Shown piece by piece: positions 3,206-37,946 of a stretch of DNA of 64,000 bases (the first letter of the stretch is position 1; each line of letters begins with the position of its first letter). The notes beneath the pieces were generated by a model. The model had not been told where the DNA came from, did no database searches, and saw nothing but the letters and a program-made list of their open reading frames with translations. Source of the DNA: Anaerolineae bacterium (GTDB taxonomy: Bacteria; Chloroflexota; Anaerolineae; 4572-78; J111); contig JAFGNV010000008.1 in the NCBI GenBank assembly GCA_016926805.1, positions 1 to 64,000 on the forward strand, in the 5' to 3' direction. The position numbers were made by a program, and so were the translations under genes.

Positions 3206-7471
<4,266 letters not shown>

Positions 7472-26843: not shown

Positions 26844-27691
26844 ATGCGCCGACCCAGACTTTTAATCTATCCGCTACTTTTCTTTTTGGTAGTTGGACCG
26901 GCTTGTAGCCTGACTTCTCACCTGGCCTCGCGTGCTGCCACGGTCAAACAGCCCACTTCCACCTCTGTACGACGTTTTGTCCGTTTTCCGCCCATTTCAC
27001 CTAAACCAATAAATACGCCTGCTGGGCTTGCTGCGAATAACGACGAACTGGTGGTTCCCACCCCGTCACCGGAACCGGCTCCAGTGGACATAACTGAAGA
27101 TGCAGGGATACCGGCTGAGACGGCACCTCCTTTTACTGAGGGTCTGGAAAACTCCGAACTTTTTTCGATGCCGGAGCAGTCATTGGCTCTCGTTGAGGCG
27201 ACGAATGAAATCCCTGCTTCCGTTGTAGCCGACGCACCCCCGGCTGTTGTTTCGCCGTCCAATACCTTTGCCCCAACCTCCCTTCCCGTTGATCCTACCC
27301 AAACTGTCCCGGTGGCAAAAAATATTCCTCGGCCCGCTCCAACAGCCACGCCAGCCATCAATCTGATGACGAACCTGCTCAACGCCTTAAGCCAGCTAAC
27401 ACCCACTCCCACGCGAACCCCCTTACCCACTTTCACGTCTACCCCGACTCATACTCATACACCGACCCCATCGCCCACGCCGACAGATACCGCCACGCCC
27501 ACCGAAACAGCTATACCCACCATCACCCCCACCCCTACCGATACGGCCACGCCTACCCACACGCCAATTCCTGCTGACACTCCTACGCCAACCAAAACCC
27601 CAACGGCGACACTCAGGCCACCGCCAACCGCCACCCTCTCACCAACCCACACGCCGTTGCCAGAGTACGACTTTATAGTGGCCGAGTTTTT
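26844..27691 (+). pseudogene. 5' part of a Pro/Thr-rich lipoprotein gene split by the integrated element
   Basis: The N-terminus is a lipoprotein signal (LLIYPLLFFLVVGPACS, lipobox cysteine at residue 22). A disordered Ser/Pro/Thr region follows, with PTPT-type repeats from about residue 170 to 270, a surface stalk typical of Chloroflexota lipoproteins. Host coding ends at the TT core (27690-27691) in EYDFIVAEF. The open frame continues 12 codons into the element (LNTPIPPLNYLI) before a stop, so a truncated 294-residue product may still be made. Joining to 37610-37946 restores a 394-residue protein. Loss of the C-terminal globular domain probably inactivates it. Confidence 0.85.
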
Positions 27692-27705
27692 GAATACACC
27701 GATAC
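27676..27705. other. attL of the integrated element
   Basis: Host left arm (to 27689), TT core (27690-27691) and element arm GAATACACCGATAC (27692-27705). The core is inferred from symmetry with attR: with TT as centre, the reconstructed attP arms are 11/14 identical as inverted repeats. Confidence 0.8.
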
Positions 27706-27779
27706 CGCCCCTAAATTATCTTATCTAATCTTTGACCCCATAGTTTTAACGCTTGAGCCTGTTGCCATAGGTTAAACGG

Positions 27780-28307
27780 ATGATAACCATTGTCTTGGTG
27801 GTTGCCATTGTTTTTGTAGCTCTTTTGGTCAGTTGGCTTTTTTCTGATACGTCGCACCGAGTCGAGTACCAAGAACCTGAACCGCCGCCGTTCTGGACGC
27901 CGCCTGATATTAACGAGCCGCCGCCAAAAGTTGAGCCAGAGCCAACGCCCTATATACCGGATTGGTATCCTGAATGGTGGTTGGAGTTGGCTGAATTGGG
28001 CCGGGTTAGCCTTCTGAGTCCAGAAGACGACGATCTTGACGAATGGGTCTTTGAGGTTGTGCGAATTGCCTACACTCAATTTGAGGGCCGCCTATCGCCC
28101 AAGATGAACCTATACCCCTTTTTCAGACACAACACCGATTATGGGCATATTCCCCCCCGTTGGAAATCTTTACACTTCTTTGAGGGACTGTCCGCTATTC
28201 TTCGCAAGGCCGGTTTTGCCGAAATGACAAGCCAGCGTTCAGGTTTGCGATTGAACGAAAAAGGGATAGAGCAATTTCGGGCAGACCCTAACCGATGGTA
28301 TCCCTAA
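27780..28307 (+). CDS. Unknown membrane-anchored protein of the element
   Basis: 175 residues: an N-terminal transmembrane helix (ITIVLVVAIVFVALLVSWLF), a Pro/Glu-rich spacer (PEPPPFWTPP, PPPKVEPEPTP), and a folded C-terminal part of about 100 residues (EWVFEVVRIAYTQFEGRL, then SLHFFEGLSAILRKAGF) ending RADPNRWYP. The C-terminal segment looks like a winged-helix-type helical fold but matches nothing I know. It is the first gene inside attL; no clear Shine-Dalgarno precedes ATG 27780. The single helix and spacer suggest a surface- or membrane-associated transfer or exclusion role (inference). Confidence 0.7.
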   Translation: MITIVLVVAIVFVALLVSWLFSDTSHRVEYQEPEPPPFWTPPDINEPPPKVEPEPTPYIPDWYPEWWLELAELGRVSLLSPEDDDLDEWVFEVVRIAYTQFEGRLSPKMNLYPFFRHNTDYGHIPPRWKSLHFFEGLSAILRKAGFAEMTSQRSGLRLNEKGIEQFRADPNRWYP

Positions 28308-28522
28308 TTTGTTACTCATTACTCGCATTTCAAAAAAAGTGCCCAACAGGTATACCCTGATTCCTCAAAATCGCCGGGAAAGATAGCTAAATGGGTTGTA
28401 GCCCTGTTTACCAACTTGAGCGAATCTGGTAAAATCAACGGAGAGCTAGTTTAGCCAAAGGCCCGATGACCGCCCGGCCCGGTGAGCGATTGAGCCATCC
28501 GGCCAACCGGCCAAAACAAAAA

Positions 28523-28570
28523 TACGTCCGATTGGTCTTTTTGCTTGGGAGCAATTCACAATCGGACGTA
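28523..28570. promoter_or_regulatory. 12-bp inverted repeat abutting a Shine-Dalgarno
   Basis: TACGTCCGATTG (28523-28534) and CAATCGGACGTA (28559-28570) are perfect partners with a 24-nt loop. The right arm abuts AAGGAGG (28570-28576), the ribosome-binding site of the gene at 28585. It may be a DNA operator or an RNA hairpin controlling access to that site. The rest of 28308-28522 holds no gene. Confidence 0.6.
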
Positions 28571-28584
28571 AGGAGGTAAACCCT

Positions 28585-29133
28585 GTGAAAATAGTCTCTG
28601 GTATTGTCGCATTTATTCTTACTATTGTCAAGAACGTCTTCACGTCGGCCAAACGGTGGTTTGTATCAGATGGCCTTGAAATTGAATGGGTACAAGAACC
28701 GCCCATTCAAAGGGCTATTTTCCTTCCCTCACTACCCCCCAAAATTCAATGTGGCGATTATGAAAAACTTCGCTTGGCTGAGATCACTATAGATGACTTA
28801 GAAATCTACGACAAAATGGTAACAATGGCAGAAAAAGACCCTGAATTTATGAAGATGGTCTTTTTTGAACTGGTACGGATTGCCCCTTCCGAGTGGTTGA
28901 AAACTCGATTGATTGATGGTTATGAAAGATTAAAAGAGGAATGGGCAGTTGAGTCAGGCAGACCACGTTATAAGGCTGACGAAAAGGCGAGACAACGACA
29001 TTGGAATGAGCAAAAGCTATTTGATGAGAATTTAAAATTATGGATGAGTGAAGCCAAAGAAGAAAAACCCAATAGAAGGTGGAAAGACCCCTTCAAAAGT
29101 TTTAGGGATATTCTGAAGAGAAAACCGGAGTAA
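28585..29133 (+). CDS. Unknown protein of the element
   Basis: 182 residues from GTG 28585, with AAGGAGG 8 nt upstream. The N-terminus has a moderately hydrophobic helix (IVSGIVAFILTIVKNVF), the middle is acidic/hydrophobic (EITIDDLEIYDKMVTMAEKD, then FELVRIAPSEWL), and the C-terminus is strongly basic and helical (KAKEEKP-like, RRWKDPFKSFRDILKRKPE). FELVRIAPSEW echoes FEVVRIAYTQF in the preceding gene, so the two may be distant paralogues. No known family recognised. It is followed by two hairpins, the second a terminator. Confidence 0.7.
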   Translation: MKIVSGIVAFILTIVKNVFTSAKRWFVSDGLEIEWVQEPPIQRAIFLPSLPPKIQCGDYEKLRLAEITIDDLEIYDKMVTMAEKDPEFMKMVFFELVRIAPSEWLKTRLIDGYERLKEEWAVESGRPRYKADEKARQRHWNEQKLFDENLKLWMSEAKEEKPNRRWKDPFKSFRDILKRKPE

Positions 29134-29146
29134 GTAGGGGCAATCG

Positions 29147-29220
29147 ACAGTAAACCCTTTTTACTGTTAAAATTTCCTGTTACAATAGGCTCAATTTCAA
29201 CATTGAGCCTATTTTGTTTT
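29147..29220 (+). terminator. Tandem hairpins with terminator
   Basis: ACAGTAAA/TTTACTGT (29147-29167) is followed by AATAGGCTCAAT (29184-29195) / ATTGAGCCTATT (29202-29213), a perfect 12-bp stem with a 6-nt loop and a TTGTTTT tail. It separates the first two element genes from the replication genes; the next Shine-Dalgarno follows at once, so attenuation is possible. Confidence 0.8.
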
Positions 29221-29231
29221 GGAGGTGTACT

Positions 29232-29426
29232 ATGGAGCAGTTATTGATAAATTTTCGGCTGATGGGTGAGGAGGCCATGCACCTTCGGCTTTTGTGTGCT
29301 GAGGAACTCCGTAAACCCATTGACCAAATTCGCTGGCTCTTACAGCAAGAGTTTGAGCGGCGGGGTTATCTTTCCCCTGAAGATCGGGAAATTCGAAGGG
29401 AGGTAAACCGTGAGCAACAGTCTTAG
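29232..29426 (+). CDS. Small unknown protein of the element
   Basis: 64 residues from ATG 29232, chosen because GGAGG lies 6 nt upstream. Mostly helical and charged: LINFRLMGEEAMHLRLLCAE, then RKPIDQIRWLLQQEFERRGY and DREIRREVNREQQ. It may be a small DNA-binding or replication accessory protein; there is no recognised family. The stop overlaps the start of the next gene by 17 bp. Confidence 0.65.
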   Translation: MEQLLINFRLMGEEAMHLRLLCAEELRKPIDQIRWLLQQEFERRGYLSPEDREIRREVNREQQS

Positions 29427-29628
29427 CGAAACGCAAAGTAATGTTCTCCTTCGCGCCTACCGGTTTTTGATGGATTTGGGGCGAGACGAAAAGGCCGCCG
29501 CGCTGGGTTCTCAGGCCGAAAACGCGGCGGCCCATGCCGAGTCAACCGAGGCCGCCCGGCCATTTGATTATACTATATTTGGCCAGACCTGTGCAACGGG
29601 AGGGATAGATGAGCGATCCCAAAGGTGA
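29410..29628 (+). CDS. Small unknown protein upstream of the primase-helicase
   Basis: 72 residues from GTG 29410 with GGGAGG 6 nt upstream. The N-terminal half is helical (SETQSNVLLRAYRFLMDLGR), followed by an Ala/Glu-rich stretch. The end overlaps the primase-helicase start by 20 bp, which suggests translational coupling. Function unknown. Confidence 0.65.
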   Translation: MSNSLSETQSNVLLRAYRFLMDLGRDEKAAALGSQAENAAAHAESTEAARPFDYTIFGQTCATGGIDERSQR

Positions 29629-31657
29629 GGTAAAAGCCCGCCTGAATATTGTTGATCTGGTTAGTGAAACCGTTACCCTGAAAAAATCCGGGGCAAGCTA
29701 TACCGGGTTCTGCCCATTTCATAATAATAACAATACCCCGGCCCTGGCCGTTTTCCCGGAGACAAACACTTGGCACTGCTTTGGGAGTTGTGGTGATGGT
29801 GGGGATATTTTTAGCTGGGTCATGCGCCGGGATAATCTTGATTTTAAGGCCGCCCTGGAAATGCTGGCTGAAAAGGCCAACGTCAACCTGAACGGCCACG
29901 AACCAAAAACCAGTAAACGGCCCTACGGCAACCTGGCCGATTATGCCCAAGCGCACGGCGTGACCGCCGAGGTGTTTAAATCGTCTGGTTGGTCAGAAAC
30001 CACCCACGCAGGCCGCCCGGCCCTGGTCATCAAAACCGATACCGGCCCGCGCTGGCGTTTTGTGGACGGTAACGACCCCACATACATTCATGGCCGGGGC
30101 TATCGCCGTTGCTGGTATCGGCTCAAAGAGGCCGTGGCGTTGGCCAAAGATCATCTGATTATCTGCAACGGGGAAGCATCTGCCATTGTGGGCCAACATT
30201 ATGGCTTGGCCGCCGTGTGTCTGACCTCTGGCAGCGAAAAGCCCACCATCCCCACCGGCCTGCTTAAAGAACTACAGGCGGCCTACACCGGGCCGATCCT
30301 GGTTGCCCTGGACTGCGACCAGGCCGGGCGAACTAAAGCCCCTAAATTGGCCCAATTTCTGGCCCAGGCCGGTTATCGGGCCCGCGCCGTTGACCTGGCT
30401 TTGGGCAACAACGGCCAAGACCTGGCCGATTTTTGCAAGCTGCACGGTCAAGAGGCCGCCGCCAAATTGCAAACCCTCAACGATGTGACGCCCCAGGCCA
30501 GCAAAAAAGACCACCCCGAAGGCAAGCCCAAAACCGCCGATTATATGGCAACCCTGCAAAAATTGGGCTATTCCTTCCGGCTGAACGCATTAGACGATAC
30601 CATTGAAGTAAATCAAACCCCTATCACCGACCTGATAGCCGATGAAATTCTTGGCCGGATGTGGGACATTGGCTATACCAAATATCAAAAAATGATAGAA
30701 GTGGCCTATGGGATTGAGGCCAAAAATAATCCGTATCACCCTATCAAAACCTATCTGGAATTACTCACCTATGATGGTTTATCCCACATTGATACCCTGG
30801 CAACCTACTTCACTGATACCCAGGGGATTTTTGGCCTATGGCTTAAAAAGTGGCTGGTGGGAGCTGTGGCCAAAATCTATCAACAGTACCAAAATCCAAT
30901 GTTCGTTTTGGATGGGGCGCAGGGTAAAGGTAAAAGTCATTTTGCCGCCTGGCTTTGCCCGCTTAATGACCATTTTGTTGAGTCGGCCATTCAGCCGGAA
31001 AACAACGACCACCGGCTATTGTTGGCAACCACCTGGTTATGGGAAGTGTCAGAATTAGGCGCAACCACGCGCAAGGCAGACCGGGAAGCCTTGAAAGCCT
31101 TTATCACTGTACAATGGATAACGGCCCGCAAGCCCTACGGCAAACTGCCCATTCACAAACCGGCAATGGCTTCCTTTATTGGCACGGTCAACGATGAGGC
31201 CGGATTTTTGAACGACCCCACCGGCAGCCGCCGCTTTTTGACCTGCACCCTTACCCGGATTGATTGGGACTATACTCAAATCTTGGTGCATGATATTTGG
31301 GCCGAAGCCTATCACCTGTACCAATCGGGCTACAATTGGCAACTAACCCCGTCAGAAAAGAAATTACAGGCCGAAATAAACGAACATTATGAAGTGGAAG
31401 ACCCCCTAATCCCTGAAATCTTGCGTCACTATGCCCAAACCGGCAACCCCGATGATTTTGTCTCAAGTAGTGAAGTTTTACTAAGAATGGGGCTAGACCA
31501 TTTGAACCGGGGCAACACCATGCGCTTGGCCCAAGCTATGAAAAAGTTAGGCGTCAATAAGGGGAAACCTTCAAAACCAGATGACAACGGCCAACGGCCC
31601 AACGGCTATTTTGGCCTTAAATCTATGACGGAAGAAAAGGCCGCCCCAAAAAGTTAG
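29609..31657 (+). CDS. CHC2 zinc-finger primase fused to VapE/VirE-type helicase
   Basis: 682-residue replication protein. Residues about 10-90 are a DnaG-type CHC2 zinc domain (GFCPFHNNNNTPAL, TWHCFGSCGDGGD, IFSWVMRRDNLDF). Residues about 170-280 resemble a TOPRIM fold (LIICNGEASAIVGQHYGL, ILVALDCDQAG). The C-terminal half is the virulence-associated-E P-loop NTPase (Walker A DGAQGKGKSHFAAWL; TVNDEAGFLNDPTGSRRFL). Such fusions initiate replication of phage satellites and integrative plasmids. ATG 29609 follows GGGAGGG. The iteron-like array at its 3' end is a good candidate for its origin. Confidence 0.88.
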   Translation: MSDPKGEVKARLNIVDLVSETVTLKKSGASYTGFCPFHNNNNTPALAVFPETNTWHCFGSCGDGGDIFSWVMRRDNLDFKAALEMLAEKANVNLNGHEPKTSKRPYGNLADYAQAHGVTAEVFKSSGWSETTHAGRPALVIKTDTGPRWRFVDGNDPTYIHGRGYRRCWYRLKEAVALAKDHLIICNGEASAIVGQHYGLAAVCLTSGSEKPTIPTGLLKELQAAYTGPILVALDCDQAGRTKAPKLAQFLAQAGYRARAVDLALGNNGQDLADFCKLHGQEAAAKLQTLNDVTPQASKKDHPEGKPKTADYMATLQKLGYSFRLNALDDTIEVNQTPITDLIADEILGRMWDIGYTKYQKMIEVAYGIEAKNNPYHPIKTYLELLTYDGLSHIDTLATYFTDTQGIFGLWLKKWLVGAVAKIYQQYQNPMFVLDGAQGKGKSHFAAWLCPLNDHFVESAIQPENNDHRLLLATTWLWEVSELGATTRKADREALKAFITVQWITARKPYGKLPIHKPAMASFIGTVNDEAGFLNDPTGSRRFLTCTLTRIDWDYTQILVHDIWAEAYHLYQSGYNWQLTPSEKKLQAEINEHYEVEDPLIPEILRHYAQTGNPDDFVSSSEVLLRMGLDHLNRGNTMRLAQAMKKLGVNKGKPSKPDDNGQRPNGYFGLKSMTEEKAAPKS

Positions 31658-31871
31658 ACAGGTTAGACAGTTGGACACATTAAAAAAGAACCTTTGCGGT
31701 TAGGGAATTTTATCAAGGAATCATCCCCAAAATGACCCAAAATAGGGGTAAAATGTCCAACCGTCCAACGAGTCTAACCAACTGGCTATATTTAAAAAAA
31801 CGGAAAAAACACCAAAAGGTATGTCCAACCTTTTTGGCCCAAGTTGGACATAACCCGCCAAAGGTTGGACA
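31653..31871. repeat. Iteron-like array (GTTRGACA), candidate replication origin
   Basis: Octamers on the plus strand: GTTAGACA at 31653 and 31662, GTTGGACA at 31670, 31843 and 31864. On the opposite strand: TGTCCAAC at 31754 and 31822, with partial copies GTCCAAC (31763) and GTCTAAC (31772). The pair at 31820-31829/31843-31852 is a perfect 10-bp inverted repeat (TATGTCCAAC/GTTGGACATA). A/T-rich runs lie between (around 31790-31810). The array fills the gap between the primase-helicase and the HTH gene and fits an origin or a recombination/partition site. Confidence 0.7.
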
Positions 31872-31883
31872 GTGACACATTTT

Positions 31884-31947
31884 ACCTGTCAAGATTTTGA
31901 CAGGTAATTGAGGGCGTGTTATAATACCTGTCAATACCTTTACAGGT
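31884..31947 (+). promoter_or_regulatory. Consensus promoter embedded in repressor operators
   Basis: A perfect TTGACA (31897-31902) and TATAAT (31920-31925) have a 17-nt spacer. ACCTGTCAA (31884-31892) with TTGACAGGT (31897-31905) forms one palindrome overlapping the -35. ACCTGTCAA (31926-31934) with ACAGGT (31942-31947) forms another just after the -10. The arrangement is that of a strong promoter shut by a dimeric repressor. It drives the HTH gene and probably the transfer genes. Confidence 0.8.
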
Positions 31948-31972
31948 AAATCTAACAAGTAGAGCGAGGTAA

Positions 31973-32179
31973 ATGGAAGATGTCATGACCACCAAAGAAG
32001 CCGCCAAACTTTTAGGAATAGCCCAAGAGAGTGTGTCCCGTTTAATCAAACGGGGCGAACTCAAAGCAACAAAGTTTGGGTATGCTTGGATGATTGACCG
32101 GAACAGCGCAGAGGAATATTTAAAGCGTATTGAGGGAAAATCTAAGTATGACCCAACCAGAGGCAAAACAAAAAAGTAA
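31973..32179 (+). CDS. Excisionase-family helix-turn-helix protein
   Basis: 68 residues with the MerR-like excisionase HTH: MTTKEAAKLLGIAQESVSRL, IKRGELKATKFGYAWMIDRN, then SAEEYLKRI. Proteins of this family act as recombination directionality factors or as repressors/activators of integrative elements. ATG 31973 has a GAGG four nucleotides upstream. It is the first gene after the operator/promoter and is likely autoregulated. Whether it controls the serine or the tyrosine integrase cannot be told. Confidence 0.82.
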   Translation: MEDVMTTKEAAKLLGIAQESVSRLIKRGELKATKFGYAWMIDRNSAEEYLKRIEGKSKYDPTRGKTKK

Positions 32180-32254
32180 AAGGTGGCTGCCCGATGCCCC
32201 GCCGCCAAGCAAGAACATCGGGCAATGTCACCGGACACAATACAGGAGCGTACC

Positions 32255-33016
32255 ATGTCCAAAAATATTGTACCACAATCAACCCTGCCCGACAACGGGC
32301 AACCATCCCCAAAGAGTAACAATCGAATAGTGACTATCCTTTTTTGGTTTGTGGCGTTGGCGGTTATGGCCCTGGCCGCCGCCGCCTTTGCCCTATCCTT
32401 TAACGCCCTGTTTGAACTGGCAACCAAACAAGGGGGAGTGCCAAAACATCTTGGCTGGATTTGGCCCGTTATCGTTGACCTATCGTTGTGTGTCTATACC
32501 GCCGCGATCCTGGTCGCCCAATTGCAGAGTCGCCCGGCCAAGCTGCCCGTGGCCCTGGTCATTTTCTATGCCCTGGTCACAATCGTTGGCAACGTATTAC
32601 ACGCCCCACCCACCCCCATTGGTTGGTTTGTCGCCAGCTTGCCGCCCTTATCGCTCATCTTTGGCACGGAGATTTTACGCACAATGGCCCATCACATCAT
32701 CGAACGCCAAAACGTGACCGCCTCTCTTGCCGATGTGACGGCACGCCGGAAAACCCTGACCCGTGAAACGGAAACCCTGGCCAGCAAGGTTCACACCCTC
32801 AAAGCAGAATTGGCAGAACTGAGACAGGAAAAGAAACAATTCTACGCAATCAGCGAAAACACGCGGGAACAGGCCCGGCTGATTTTATCGGAACGTTCCG
32901 ACCTATCGGGCAAAGAATTGGGGGAGTTATTGGGCAAAAGTGCCAGCTTGGGCCGCAAGCTGAAACGGGAATTGCTGCCCGACCTTCACCCCAACGGGAA
33001 GGGGGTAACACTATGA
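32255..33016 (+). CDS. DUF2637/Spd-like membrane protein
   Basis: 253 residues from ATG 32255 (CAGGAG 6 nt upstream; the open frame before it lacks a ribosome-binding site). About four transmembrane helices lie in residues 25-150 (TILFWFVALAVMALAAAAFA, then HLGWIWPVIVDLSLCVYTAA). The FNALFELATKQGGVPKHLGW...PVIVD pattern is that of DUF2637, found on actinobacterial conjugative plasmids and AICEs near spread and transfer genes. A long coiled coil (ARRKTLTRETETLASKVHTL) and a basic C-terminus follow. It overlaps the next gene by 4 bp. Confidence 0.75.
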   Translation: MSKNIVPQSTLPDNGQPSPKSNNRIVTILFWFVALAVMALAAAAFALSFNALFELATKQGGVPKHLGWIWPVIVDLSLCVYTAAILVAQLQSRPAKLPVALVIFYALVTIVGNVLHAPPTPIGWFVASLPPLSLIFGTEILRTMAHHIIERQNVTASLADVTARRKTLTRETETLASKVHTLKAELAELRQEKKQFYAISENTREQARLILSERSDLSGKELGELLGKSASLGRKLKRELLPDLHPNGKGVTL

Positions 33017-33303
33017 GTCGCGCTTTGCTGCAAAGTTCTCAAGTTGCGGTGACGTTATCGCTCAACATTATCACCGAAGATAAGGACGCTTATCACCTGG
33101 CTGTGATTCCCCTGCTTCGATTGTCGCCGCTTGGTTTGATGGTATTGTATTTTACGGTAATGGAAAATCCAATAACAAGGTACATCTCAAGGGTCACGGC
33201 CAAAATAACCCGCTTCATTCGAGATACCGCCCGCGCCCTGTCAATCACCGGCAAGATGTTGACTATCGGCGTTAACTCGCTGGCATGGGGGGTGCTGTTA
33301 TGA
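33013..33303 (+). CDS. Small membrane-associated protein of the element
   Basis: 96 residues, ATGA overlap with the preceding gene. Two hydrophobic stretches (AVIPLLRLSPLGLMVLYFTV and a C-terminal TIGVNSLAWGVLL) flank an amphipathic basic segment (RVTAKITRFIRDTARALS). It overlaps the translocase start by 4 bp. Unknown family; position suggests a partner of the translocase in a membrane transfer complex (inference). Confidence 0.6.
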   Translation: MSRALLQSSQVAVTLSLNIITEDKDAYHLAVIPLLRLSPLGLMVLYFTVMENPITRYISRVTAKITRFIRDTARALSITGKMLTIGVNSLAWGVLL

Positions 33304-34565
33304 AAAGTGAAATAAAACTCAGTAGCCCCAACTGGAAAATCTCAATTGTAGTCGGGTTCTTTGTCACCGTCCTGATTATCTTCCTGTCGCTGGTCTTTCG
33401 GGTCGAGTTTGGCGTTATCCTGCTTTCGGTTGCTGGCTCTATTGCTGGCATTGGTCTTGTGGCCATTGTCGGCAAGGTGGTCAGTCTGCTTTACTGGCGC
33501 GAATTCAAGAGACTCGAACTTGAAACGGCAAGGCAGGAATTGAGGCTAACCACTTTCAAAGCAGACCGGGCGCAATTGGAAGCCTTTGTCATTTCCATAC
33601 CCAAAACCCAACGGGTTATCACCCGGCCCGATAGCCCTATCCGGGTGATTGAGGCCCTGCCCGAACCGGCCCACGCCCTGTTACCCGCAACCACCCACGA
33701 ACTTGACCTGTTGACCGTTTTCACTCAACCAACGCAGTCTTATGCGTGCGTAGGAGGCCAGCAAACGGGCAAAACCTACCAGATGCGACACATTGCCCAA
33801 CATTGGCTAAATAACGGCTCACGGCCCATTGTGGTTGGTCCAAAGTGGGATCGGGGCGAATGGGCCGGGTGTTTGCTGTTTGGGGGAATGGGCGACTTTG
33901 CCGAAGTGAGCAAAGGCATAACCATTGTCAGGCAGGAGGCCCAACGACGGCATGCCGACCTGGACAGGCTGCACAAAGACCATTCGATCCTGCCCGTGTT
34001 CTTTGACGATTGGACGCCCATCGTTGACGCGGTAGACAATGCCCGTGAATTGGTGCTCCAGGCCACCACCCTATACGCCAGCGTCAATATCATTCTATAC
34101 TTCATTCTTCACTCTGACACGGCTAACGCTTGGGGCGTCGATAGAAAAGGCGCAGCCCTGAAAGACAATTTCATCAAGTTGTTCATTGTGCCGCACTACG
34201 ACGCTAACGGGCTGATTGTGAGGGAAAAGACCAGGGGCTATGTCAAGTTTGCGGGTGACAATCAAGAGTACCCGGTCAAGCTGTTCAACACTCCCCTTGT
34301 GACCACCTATACCCCCATTCTGGAAACAGAGGAGTATATCAACCTGGAAGTTGAGCCTACCCCCACCGAAGCCTACATCTTGAACCTACACGGTAGAGGA
34401 TACTCCCACGCCCGGATATGTGAACATGTTTATGGGTACAAATCATCTAACAAATACCCTGAAATTGACCGGGTATTAGCCAAGTTTGGCGCGTGCAACG
34501 TGCAAAACACGCTTGCACGCCCACTTTGCACGCCTTTGCACGATGCACGAGAGGACGTAGGATGA
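33300..34565 (+). CDS. Membrane-anchored P-loop DNA translocase (TraB/FtsK-like candidate)
   Basis: 421 residues from ATG 33300. Two N-terminal transmembrane helices (ISIVVGFFVTVLIIFLSLVF; GVILLSVAGSIAGIGLVAIV) are followed by a charged linker and a P-loop ATPase: Walker A in ACVGGQQTGKTYQMRHIAQ, Walker B in SILPVFFDDWTPIV. The C-terminus resembles a small DNA-binding HTH (ILNLHGRGYSHARICEHVYG). Architecture matches FtsK/TraB-type translocases, though the ATPase is small and diverged. The last 20 codons contain the TTGCACG repeat cluster. It is translationally coupled to both neighbours. Confidence 0.72.
   Translation: MKSEIKLSSPNWKISIVVGFFVTVLIIFLSLVFRVEFGVILLSVAGSIAGIGLVAIVGKVVSLLYWREFKRLELETARQELRLTTFKADRAQLEAFVISIPKTQRVITRPDSPIRVIEALPEPAHALLPATTHELDLLTVFTQPTQSYACVGGQQTGKTYQMRHIAQHWLNNGSRPIVVGPKWDRGEWAGCLLFGGMGDFAEVSKGITIVRQEAQRRHADLDRLHKDHSILPVFFDDWTPIVDAVDNARELVLQATTLYASVNIILYFILHSDTANAWGVDRKGAALKDNFIKLFIVPHYDANGLIVREKTRGYVKFAGDNQEYPVKLFNTPLVTTYTPILETEEYINLEVEPTPTEAYILNLHGRGYSHARICEHVYGYKSSNKYPEIDRVLAKFGACNVQNTLARPLCTPLHDAREDVG
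34492..34549. repeat. TTGCACG repeat cluster in the 3' end of the translocase gene (clt/TRS-like)
   Basis: Six heptamers in 58 bp: CGTGCAA at 34492 and 34499 (reverse orientation), TTGCACG at 34513, 34526 and 34536, and ATGCACG at 34543. The repeats lie in coding sequence but impose unusual residues (CNVQNTLARPLCTPLHDA). In Streptomyces elements TraB recognises short repeats (TRS) in a clt locus near traB; this cluster is the positional analogue here. Confidence 0.7.
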
Positions 34566-34792
34566 TGATAATTGACAAACACGACTTAGCCGATGTAATT
34601 CTTGCCTTATCCAGTGCAGCAAGTCGGTACAACGATCCAACATTTGCCAGTGGTTATCAAGCTGCCCTCAGAGATGTTCTTATCAGTTTGGGGGCAAGTG
34701 AGGCCGTGATTAGGCAAGTTCAAACCCGTATCAAGCTGCTAGACACCAAAATAGATGTTGTATCTAAAACTCAATGGGAAGTAAGGAATTAG
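34562..34792 (+). CDS. Small unknown protein of the element
   Basis: 76 residues from ATG 34562, overlapping the translocase stop (ATGA). Helical: MMIIDKHDLADVILALSSAA, GYQAALRDVLISLGASEA, then VIRQVQTRIKLLDTKID. Unknown family. The next gene's Shine-Dalgarno (AGGAG) lies directly at its stop codon. Confidence 0.65.
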   Translation: MMIIDKHDLADVILALSSAASRYNDPTFASGYQAALRDVLISLGASEAVIRQVQTRIKLLDTKIDVVSKTQWEVRN

Positions 34793-34803
34793 GAGAAAAA
34801 ACA

Positions 34804-35103
34804 ATGTCCCTAAAAACGAAAGATAAAGTATCTGTAGGATTCCCAATTGGCAAAACTTACTTGACTTTTACCTTCTCCAAAAGCGCACTTTTACAAGCAG
34901 CCCTCGAAGTCATAGAGAATGACCGTTTTAACTATGTGACCGCCCTGGATATTTTGGGGATTGGTCATTCAGAAAAAGATACAGTTGAGCAACTAAAAGA
35001 GAGGATGTTAAACTGCATTGATGACTTTATTTCTAACATTCTGCCTTTTTCTGATGACCTGTTCTACCACGCTTTAATTATGGGCATAGTTGAGGGTAGT
35101 TAA
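34804..35103 (+). CDS. Small unknown protein of the element
   Basis: 99 residues from ATG 34804, with AGGAG 8 nt upstream. It begins with a basic beta-rich part (KDKVSVGFPIGKTYLTFTFS) and continues as acidic helices (LQAALEVIENDRFNYVTALD; VEQLKERMLNCIDDFISNIL). Unknown family and function. It is in the same transcript as the integrase 12 bp downstream. Confidence 0.62.
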   Translation: MSLKTKDKVSVGFPIGKTYLTFTFSKSALLQAALEVIENDRFNYVTALDILGIGHSEKDTVEQLKERMLNCIDDFISNILPFSDDLFYHALIMGIVEGS

Positions 35104-35115
35104 AGGGGAATAGCC

Positions 35116-36018
35116 ATGCTGATGTCCGAAGCATTAGAGTTGTTGATTAAGTACCGCTTCGACAGGTCGGAAAGAACAAAGAAGATATATCGGGAGCATG
35201 TCACCCGGTTTATTGATTTTGTGGGAGATATAGCACCTTCTGAGGTGAACACCGGGCAAGTGGTAGACTTCTTCATTCAGCTTAAAAAGGTTGACGGGAG
35301 CGAATATAGTAAGTCATTTCAAAATCAAGTTTGGCGCACCCTGCATTTGTTCTTTGAGTTTTGCCGCGACCAGGAAATGACTTACAAAAACCCGATCAGA
35401 GGTTGTCCCAAGCCCAAAGTGCCAATAGGCCCCAAGCCAAAACTATCATTGCGTGAAGTTAGGCGGTTACTTGAGGTTATTGAGGAAACTGAGACAAAAC
35501 GCTTTGATTGTGTCGCCAGAAATAGAGCTATGGTGCTTTTGATGCTGGATTGTGGCTTAAGACGGGGTGAAGTTATCGAGCTAAGATTTTCTTGCCTAAA
35601 TCTTGATGAGGGAGAAATTTTGGTCTGGTCTAACAAGACCCAAACAAGCCGACTTGTCCCAGTAGGGCAAGAGACCACCGAAGCTATTTTGGCTTACCTG
35701 GAGCAGCGTGGGCCGGGTCTGGCTGATGAAAAAATATTTCTAACCGTTTACGGCACGCCGGTTAAAGAGCATACCATAGACCTGTTGTTTGGCAGAATAA
35801 AAAAGCGATTTGATGACAAGTTACACCCTCACTTACTACGCCATACTTTCGCCCGGCATTATATCAACAAGGGTGAATTGAGGAAGTTACAAAAAATCTT
35901 GGGCCATAGTGATGTTAGAACAACAGCCACTTATTATGCTGAACCAGATATAGAAGCCATAAAAGCTGAGTTTAAAATCGCATCCCCAATGGCCCAACTT
36001 GTTTTGGCCCTAAAATGA
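35116..36018 (+). CDS. Tyrosine recombinase/integrase of the element
   Basis: 300-residue phage/Xer-type recombinase with a complete active site: Arg in DCGLRRGEVIELR, Lys in VWSNKTQTSRLVPV, HxxR in HPHLLRHTFARHY, His in LGHSDVRTTATYY and the nucleophilic Tyr in that motif. An N-terminal SAM-like core-binding domain (ERTKKIYREHVTRFIDFVGD) precedes it. GGGGAA lies upstream of ATG 35116. It sits 19 bp before the serine recombinase. The att structure implicates the latter in integration, so this enzyme may resolve multimers or act on another site. Confidence 0.93.
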   Translation: MLMSEALELLIKYRFDRSERTKKIYREHVTRFIDFVGDIAPSEVNTGQVVDFFIQLKKVDGSEYSKSFQNQVWRTLHLFFEFCRDQEMTYKNPIRGCPKPKVPIGPKPKLSLREVRRLLEVIEETETKRFDCVARNRAMVLLMLDCGLRRGEVIELRFSCLNLDEGEILVWSNKTQTSRLVPVGQETTEAILAYLEQRGPGLADEKIFLTVYGTPVKEHTIDLLFGRIKKRFDDKLHPHLLRHTFARHYINKGELRKLQKILGHSDVRTTATYYAEPDIEAIKAEFKIASPMAQLVLALK

Positions 36019-36037
36019 CCGAGGGAGCAAAAACACG

Positions 36038-37615
36038 ATGACAAAGACAATCTTATATACCAGGGTTTCAACCGACGATCAAAAAGATAAAGGCGTTAGC
36101 TTGGACGTGCAATCTTCTAAAGTCCAAGCCTACGCCACTCTTAACGATATGCGGGTGATTGCTGAATTTGCCGACGATTTTAGCGGGACTAAATTAGAAC
36201 GCCCGGCATTTAAGAAGGTTTTGGCTTTGCTCAGAGAGGGCAAAGCCAAAGCCCTTGTTTGTTATGATAATGACCGGCTGACCCGTAACCCCACAGATTA
36301 CATGTTACTGCGTGACGAATTTGCTCAACTTGGGGTAGAATTGCACTATGTAACCCGTGGTAAAATTAACCTAAACGACGAGATCATGCAGGGGGTTGAG
36401 GATTTTCAAGGCCGGTTTGCTAAACAATGGCTCAAAAAGATTGTGCAGGGTTGCACCGATGGCCGCCGGGAGAAGGCCAGACAAGGCGGGTATATGGGCC
36501 ACGGTCAAACGCCTTATGGTTACGATGTGGTCAAGGATGGAAAATTGTTCAAACTGGTCATAAACGAGGGTGAAGCCGAAATAGTCCTCTTAATTTTCAG
36601 ACTGTATGTTTTTGGTGATGAGTCCGGCCCAATGTCAATTAAAGAGATCGCCAACCATCTCAATTTGTTGAGTATTCCCCCTGCAATCAGCAAGCGCAAT
36701 GATGAACGCAAGGCGTCAAGATGGCAGGTCTGGCGAATTGCGGACATTTTGAAAAGTCGGGTTTACTTGGGCGAATGGTATTACGCCAAAGACAGTGACA
36801 ACCCCATTAAGGTCAGTATACCGGCAATTGTTGAACAAGAAATTTTTGACGCAGCCAGCGCAAGACGCATTAAAAACAAAAAGGGGTTCAGAGCGACACG
36901 GATCGGGACACATCAAGCCCTGGTGCGTGGTTGTGTTGTTTGTGGGCATTGCGGATATGCTATGTATGCGATGACGACCAAAACCAAAACGGGCAAATAT
37001 TACACTTATTATGTTTGCGGGTGTGCTAAGGGAGTCCAGTATAACGGTACGTGTGAAAATCGTCATCACTTTAACGCCCAACGTATTGACGCCGATATTT
37101 GGCAACGACTCAAGGGTTTATTGACTGATAAGGATAAATTTGATCGGGCAATTGATGAACTTAATCAGAATTATGATACCCAAAATCAAGAAATTATTGA
37201 CGAATTAAACCGGGTTGAAACCAGTATAGCCAAGCGCAACAAAGAACTTGAAAAGGCCGTTGATGGCTGGATCAGCATGGAAAAAGGCACTACCACTAAA
37301 GAATATCTCAAAAAACGATGTGACGAAATTGAACTTAATTTGGCTGAATTGCAAGCCAAAAAAGAAAAATTGCAAGGCCGGTTAAGTGGGCAACGATTGA
37401 CACAAGATAGAGTTACTAGCTTGTCTCAAACCGTTTTAAGTATCGGGAGGGGACTCGAAAAGGCAGATCATATCTTTGAGGCAAGGCGTCAACTTGTAGC
37501 CGACATTTTTAACGTCAAAGTTGCCTTATCATTCGATGGTCAAGAGGACATCCAGGCTACTTGTGAACTTGGCCCATTAGAGAATTATGAGCCGTGTCGG
37601 TCAATTCTTCAATAG
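36038..37615 (+). CDS. Large serine recombinase (site-specific integrase)
   Basis: 525 residues. The resolvase catalytic domain (about 1-150) has the nucleophile Ser11 in LYTRVSTDDQ and the CYDNDRLTRNPTDY motif. A recombinase domain (about 165-270) and a zinc-ribbon domain follow, with cysteines in GCVVCGHCGYAM and YYVCGCAKGV, then a long coiled coil (NRVETSIAKRNKELEKAVDG). These parts identify a large serine integrase. The stop codon TAG (37613-37615) is supplied by host DNA: the coding region crosses attR. In an excised circle the frame would run on from CRSIL through EYTDTAPKLSYLIF for 27 residues to a TAA at 27774-27776. Confidence 0.95.
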   Translation: MTKTILYTRVSTDDQKDKGVSLDVQSSKVQAYATLNDMRVIAEFADDFSGTKLERPAFKKVLALLREGKAKALVCYDNDRLTRNPTDYMLLRDEFAQLGVELHYVTRGKINLNDEIMQGVEDFQGRFAKQWLKKIVQGCTDGRREKARQGGYMGHGQTPYGYDVVKDGKLFKLVINEGEAEIVLLIFRLYVFGDESGPMSIKEIANHLNLLSIPPAISKRNDERKASRWQVWRIADILKSRVYLGEWYYAKDSDNPIKVSIPAIVEQEIFDAASARRIKNKKGFRATRIGTHQALVRGCVVCGHCGYAMYAMTTKTKTGKYYTYYVCGCAKGVQYNGTCENRHHFNAQRIDADIWQRLKGLLTDKDKFDRAIDELNQNYDTQNQEIIDELNRVETSIAKRNKELEKAVDGWISMEKGTTTKEYLKKRCDEIELNLAELQAKKEKLQGRLSGQRLTQDRVTSLSQTVLSIGRGLEKADHIFEARRQLVADIFNVKVALSFDGQEDIQATCELGPLENYEPCRSILQ

Positions 37616-37623
37616 CCCAACCA
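37594..37623. other. attR of the integrated element
   Basis: Element arm GTGTCGGTCAATTC (37594-37607), TT core (37608-37609) and host arm CAATAGCCCAACCA (37610-37623). Joined to the attL element arm it forms an imperfect inverted repeat centred on TT; symmetry continues weakly 9 nt further on each side (6/9). Confidence 0.8.
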
Positions 37624-37946
37624 CCAACTCGTTCCTGGTGATTTACGTTGCGATTGTGGACGCCAACGAGATTCCCATTGGCGATATGAGAATTGTCGGC
37701 ACTCGATTGGATCACAACCTCATCTATGAGAGTCCCCTATCAACGTGGTATTTTGAGGGCTACAATGCGCCGGGCCAGGTCATAAAAACCGGCAACGTGA
37801 AATTTGAGCCACCTGGCGGTATCGAAACCACCTCTTGGGTATTGCACCTGGAGGATGCTCAGGGCAATCGTCATTCTGCCGAAATTCCGTTTGATACGGC
37901 TGAACATGCCAAACAATGGTATTTTATCAAACTGAAACGGAAGTAA
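37610..37946 (+). pseudogene. 3' part of the split lipoprotein gene
   Basis: Encodes the C-terminal globular domain: FNSPTTNSFLVIYVAIVDAN, EIPIGDMRIVGTRLDHNLIY, then KFEPPGGIETTSWVLHLEDA and EHAKQWYFIKLKRK. The start of this fragment lies inside attR, so it has no natural promoter or ribosome-binding site, and the frame before it is the recombinase region read in another frame. It joins 26844-27691 in frame through AEF-FNSPTTN. The domain resembles a beta-sandwich that ends many Pro/Thr-stalk lipoproteins in this lineage (recognition only). Confidence 0.82.

Follow-up and report, generated by a model that had tools for sequence, protein, structure and literature searches.

The cluster of short, oppositely oriented repeats at the 3' end of a translocase gene in a Chloroflexota integrated element is probably a cis-acting, clt-like loading site for the translocase encoded by that same gene, which would pump the excised circle of the element. 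That this translocase binds the cluster in one capacity or another, with the transfer and partition readings taken together, is very likely. Support comes from sequence comparison, namely from the position of the cluster, its architecture, the covariation of repeat word and recognition helix, the homology of the motor, the lack of a recognised relaxase, and the finding that the cluster is not attP. Throughout, the window means the whole stretch of DNA that was analysed, 64,000 nucleotides (64 kb) in length.

A local repeat cluster in the last codons of a translocase gene

The features concerned are the following:

33285..34565, + strand: TraB/FtsK-like P-loop DNA translocase with a membrane anchor, probably starting at the ATG at 33303, with two N-terminal helices, a RecA-type motor and a C-terminal HTH
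34362..34511, + strand: codons for the three helices of the C-terminal HTH (residues 354-403 of the AlphaFold2 model), with the recognition helix from 34446 (SSNKYPEI...)
34492..34549, no strand: clt-like repeat cluster, CGTGCAA twice, then TTGCACG three times and ATGCACG, that is, a tandem pair with a 7-bp period followed by inverted copies

Exact copies of TTGCACG/CGTGCAA lie at 34492-34498 and 34499-34505 on the minus strand and at 34513-34519, 34526-34532 and 34536-34542 on the plus strand, and the sixth copy, ATGCACG at 34543-34549, has one mismatch to TTGCACG. Of the six 7-mers in 58 bp described in the initial annotation, the arrangement of two in one orientation and four in the other stands, with five exact copies and one mismatched; it is the 6-mer TGCACG/CGTGCA that occurs six times exactly, two one way and then four the other. 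The coordinates also bear out the placement of the cluster within the last codons of a membrane P-loop translocase gene: it sits inside the translocase ORF, after the HTH, whose codons run to 34511 in the model.

Across the 64 kb, exact TTGCACG occurs 12 times against 11.5 expected, which is chance level, and a KOPS reading was rejected, the word being neither enriched nor dispersed and polar. The cluster is nevertheless unique in the window: nowhere else does a non-simple 7-mer reach four (or five) copies in 58 bp, no cluster of a 7-mer at least four times per 58 bp arose in 60 dinucleotide shuffles of the 64 kb, and TTGCACG pairs within 20 bp are confined to the cluster in a scan of the whole genome to which the window belongs. 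The density of the cluster is not explained by chance.

The translocase and its relationship to TraB

The translocase has 426 aa and no match in Pfam (including PF01580, FtsK_SpoIIIE), NCBIfam or PADLOC. An AlphaFold2 model made with the window protein and relatives from public contigs starts with long hydrophobic helices at the N-terminus, continues as a confident P-loop RecA-type motor and closes with a three-helix HTH at the C-terminus; the membrane anchor is visible as long hydrophobic helices in both model and sequence. The HTH is modelled with a pLDDT of 83-93 over most of its length and has no wing, unlike that of Streptomyces TraB, and the residues that vary between relatives open the recognition helix. 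Fold matches of the model are to RecA/KaiC and to an FtsK-like EssC domain (EssC D3, TMt 0.56), sequence profiles give weak matches to TrwB, FtsK and VirB4, and alignment by hhalign with a Streptomyces TraB alignment reaches a probability of 97.5 (E 8e-12) over the motor. Judged by this profile alignment, the motor is homologous to pIJ101-type TraB. PHROGs gives the relatives' motors only a weak "terminase large subunit" label (phrog_2666), which was judged a superfamily match.

An integrated element without a recognised relaxase

The translocase gene belongs to an element inserted in a host gene, with these parts:

26844-27728 and 37587-37946: threonine/proline-rich host-gene halves, split by the element
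27685-27696 and 37603-37614: attachment core of about 12 bp, at the two junctions
27697..37602, no strand: integrated element of about 9.9 kb between the two host-gene halves, with the empty site in G001:C22 (L100)
29609..31657, + strand: primase-helicase with CHC2 zinc finger and VapE-like domain
31653..31950, no strand: second repeat cluster, candidate replication origin, TTGGACA/TGTCCAA and TACCTGTCA dyads directly 3' of the primase-helicase gene
31973..32179, + strand: small excisionase-like HTH protein of 68 aa, judged by eye
32183..33016, + strand: DUF2637 membrane protein with an HTH-like end, in SpdB position
33013..33303, + strand: small protein (96 aa) that relatives also encode in a conserved position immediately 5' of the translocase gene
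34562..34792, + strand: small ORF whose start overlaps the translocase stop (ATGA)
35116..36018, + strand: tyrosine recombinase
36038..37615, + strand: large serine integrase, whose stop codon overlaps the right junction

The host gene is uninterrupted (381 aa, L100) in the sister genome G001 of the same genus. Two small ORFs lie between the motor and the tyrosine recombinase. Scans of the main ORFs of 27697-37602 with Pfam and other libraries recognised no relaxase, T4SS, actin, Par or virion genes, in agreement with the earlier description of an element lacking a relaxase, and the DUF2637/Spd-like gene of that description is confirmed by Pfam (E=1.3e-17). The HTH-like terminal segment of the DUF2637 protein reads LSGKELGELLGKSASLGRKLKREL, and its family carries the PHROGs label "excisionase" (phrog_733). 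Streptomyces plasmids group traB with a member of the DUF2637 family, which lies two genes from it, and with an ORF of about 95 aa; in the window the order is DUF2637, 96-aa ORF, motor. The second repeat cluster is a candidate replication origin, and a cluster is found at the equivalent place, 3' of the VapE gene, in the relative L059.

Clusters at the same place in relatives

Searches gave 34 members of the translocase family, the window's among them, from viral contigs and from related genomes; the former are of metagenomic origin and could be chimeras or prophages. No relatives of the window translocase came from plasmid and phage reference collections, and a single-protein scan of viral contigs found none either, alignments being needed; later viral-contig scans added four new members, two of them with clusters.

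In most relatives short words are clustered at the 3' end of the motor gene, usually as two blocks in opposite orientation, the left block often a tandem pair with a period of 7-8 bp and the inverted copies next to it. At least three copies of a 7-mer per 120 bp were present in a fraction of 0.42 of members at the stop codon and 0.36 at +60, against 0-0.12 elsewhere within 1.5 kb of the stop; an earlier pair-count statistic, blurred by low-complexity coding repeats, is superseded by this measure. The words themselves differ (TTGCACG, GGTGTAA, GTGTACC, GTGAGTA, GCTAC/GTAGC, GTGTGAG, CTTCGCA, GACTAAC, TCGTGGC and others), TTGCACG has no second natural example among the relatives' cluster words, and each of the four elements co-resident in G009 has a word of its own. 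No cluster could be recognised at the stop codon in about nine members, among them L073 and L080, whose HTHs are close to each other, and some of the members without one have other clusters; clear stop-codon clusters are also mostly absent from the distant homologues in two other families that a phylum-wide search returned. In the contig G011:C14 the translocase-DUF2637 pair occurs twice (L083, L084), with reversed gene order, at opposite ends.

Two observations had been named in advance as damaging to a transfer-locus reading: absence of the repeats from close relatives, and a codon effect, with the peptide CNVQNTLARP conserved and the DNA not. Neither was found. Most close relatives have repeats at that position, most relatives have their clusters in noncoding DNA, and the peptide is not conserved, most of the relatives' proteins ending right after the HTH.

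The repeat word follows the HTH

That repeat word and HTH should covary among relatives was borne out by a partial Mantel test of word against HTH given the motor (r=0.43, p=0.0003, copy-weighted), whereas word against motor given the HTH was not significant. The effect of the HTH persisted with strictly noncoding DNA (r=0.41) and, in a test run because cluster-bearing members had partly been chosen by eye, with all members unselected (r=0.37); it was absent in two control stretches, and the recognition segment adds signal beyond the first two HTH helices. An initial version of the Mantel test, based on recurrent 6-mers in common, gave a noisier result (partial p=0.008 for the HTH, p=0.017 for the motor). 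These permutations, on samples of 24-33 sequences, do not replace a phylogenetic model. In the 14 members with an assigned recombinase, the partial correlation was 0.19 (p=0.046) for the recombinase and 0.24 (p=0.012) for the HTH.

Individual pairs illustrate the same relationship. L074 and L079 have similarities of 0.12 between motors, 0.02 between recombinases and 0.66 between HTHs, and both combine the helix GSKGGNQN with the word GGTGTAA, a combination also found in L059 on a phage contig; L074 and L081 have similarities of 0.82 between motors, 0.44 between recombinases and 0.39 between HTHs, with different helices and no common word. L145, found after the tests, shares the word TCGTGGC with L066, and their helices are similar (PNGGQ/PNGRQ). 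Across these comparisons the word follows the HTH, not the motor, and only weakly the recombinase.

What the cluster is for

How would the cluster work as a loading site? The C-terminal HTH would bind the 7-bp words, and the two opposed blocks would assemble a membrane-anchored motor, presumably a hexamer, on the double-stranded DNA of the element, or could load motors on both sides. From there the motor would pump the circle, excised and replicating, through a membrane or septum, in the way that Streptomyces TraB acts from clt. Physical binding, hexamer assembly and pumping of double-stranded DNA are inferred steps, and the least certain part is the outcome, transfer to another cell rather than partition or spreading within a filament.

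The same binding of cluster by translocase could instead serve partition, anchoring or spreading in the host cell or filament, with the cluster as a centromere-like site, a reading that we consider rather unlikely though worth keeping in sight. In its favour, translocase and cluster are found together on contigs that also encode terminase, portal or tail proteins (L059, L060, L071), where virions would provide horizontal transfer, and actin-like segregation proteins are encoded in L059, L067 and L078. More broadly, family motors lie beside phage terminase, portal or Gp37-like tail genes in five viral contigs (L059, L060, L063, L070, L071), the 3' cluster being present in L059, L060 and L071. 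Against a partition role, L078 has eight copies of ATTCCCA at 4481-5443 and nearby, close to its actin-like (ALP) gene and apart from the GTGTAA cluster of its translocase, which may be a partition site of its own; moreover, the window element is chromosomally integrated with no actin or Par gene recognised, and its DUF2637 neighbourhood resembles Streptomyces transfer regions. The occurrence of the same cassette on tailed-phage contigs does not require conjugation and is compatible with partition or spreading. Of the proposal in the initial annotation, a clt-like site read by the translocase's own HTH with diverged recognition, the reading by the HTH gains from the covariation, whereas intercellular transfer does not follow in the same way.

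It is improbable that the cluster is an operator for repression of the recombinase operon downstream, whether by the HTH or by some other DNA-binding protein. The cluster usually lies between the translocase and a recombinase gene, and co-diversification is compatible with any binding role of the HTH; but in the window the cluster lies within the translocase ORF, no promoter-like site was seen there on the + strand, and the next ORF overlaps the stop codon. Moreover, the downstream gene varies among members (serine or tyrosine recombinase, or neither) under a constant architecture, and repression would be an unusual task for a motor anchored in the membrane.

A recombinase site, whether attP or accessory arms, for either the serine or the tyrosine recombinase, is less probable again. 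Inverted repeats near integrase genes are typical of such sites, and the 14-member subset gave the weak correlation of recombinase with word reported above. However, L074 and L079 share a word across recombinases that are hardly similar, L074 and L081 have no common word despite more similar ones, and several cluster-bearing members had no adjacent recombinase found. Identity with the serine attP was rejected: the empty site puts the junctions at about 27696 and 37603, and the cluster is intact 3.1 kb inside the element, so it is not attP, which is split at the element junctions.

An RNA hairpin, terminator or attenuator is hardly credible, for although the inverted copies fold stably (z -3.5 to -5.6 in four of five members), a U tract is absent, no Rfam family is matched, the blocks have unequal copy numbers, and an RNA hairpin has no reason to track the sequence of an HTH. 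Chance or a codon effect can practically be discounted: the total of TTGCACG in the window is average, but no shuffle reproduces the cluster, and the noncoding clusters of most relatives and the positional peak at the stop codon contradict it.

Returning to the cluster as a loading site, a broader proposition is possible, though we hold it with less than even confidence: that relaxase-independent, TraB-like transfer of whole double-stranded elements exists in Chloroflexota, in integrative elements and tailed phages, with HTH and adjacent repeats swapped together between motors, which would give a readable code (GGNQN/GGTGTAA, GGKQ/GTGTACC, GGAAY/GCTAC, SSNKY/TTGCACG).

Comparison with known systems

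Streptomyces and other actinomycetes are the described cases of relaxase-free transfer by one FtsK-like motor (PMC3218068, PMC12857230). If the loading-site reading is true, a related motor with its own co-diversifying site would carry this mode of transfer to another phylum, the natural series of paired helices and 7-bp words would make a recognition code learnable, and repeats at the 3' end of a motor gene would be a signature by which to locate such elements and predict their specificity. In the literature searches made, no paper linked AICE or TraB to Chloroflexi in this sense.

In FtsK/KOPS, as in the window, a motor has a C-terminal DNA-reading domain, but KOPS are dispersed polar motifs and the window has one local cluster. 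Thermus TdtA, a HerA/FtsK motor for DNA donation (PMC5365140), is likewise a non-actinobacterial motor of the superfamily engaged in DNA export; unlike the window translocase, it has no detected DNA-binding domain or repeat site. AICE share with the window element the integrated state with an integrase (tyrosine or serine), a replication module and an FtsK-like transfer protein (PMC3218068). The window element has a CHC2-VapE primase-helicase rather than RepSA, RepAM or Prim-Pol, its host, which shares a GTDB family with Chloroflexi bacterium isolate J111 (G007, L058), is not in Actinomycetales, and its Tra protein is unrecognised by PF01580; it was not filed as an AICE because replication protein and host do not fit.

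The nearest parallel is Streptomyces TraB/clt (pSVH1, pIJ101, pJV1, pWTY27), which likewise has a single membrane FtsK-like motor with a C-terminal HTH, short repeats, no relaxase and a DUF2637/Spd-type neighbour. TraB of pSVH1 reads 8-bp repeats via helix 3 of its C-terminal domain (PMC3583192, PMC4170104). The clt of pWTY27 also extends into the end of its tra gene and is built of 7-bp repeats: it takes in 16 bp from the 3' end of traA and a further 159 bp, and TraA footprints on four such repeats (PMC3583192). The pIJ101-type Streptomyces plasmids examined as a possible positive control had no cluster at the traB end. The TRS word GACCCGGA is not matched by the window word TTGCACG, but it is not a family-wide requirement because repeat words vary among Streptomyces plasmids (PMC3583192). 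The window system differs from Streptomyces TraB/clt in its Chloroflexota host, in a motor of about 420 aa against about 650 that Pfam FtsK_SpoIIIE does not recognise, in a wingless HTH, in two opposed repeat blocks, in a word that varies by element type, and in that transfer is putative here. With these differences in mind, the window system probably works like TraB/clt and would be a variant of it from outside Actinobacteria.
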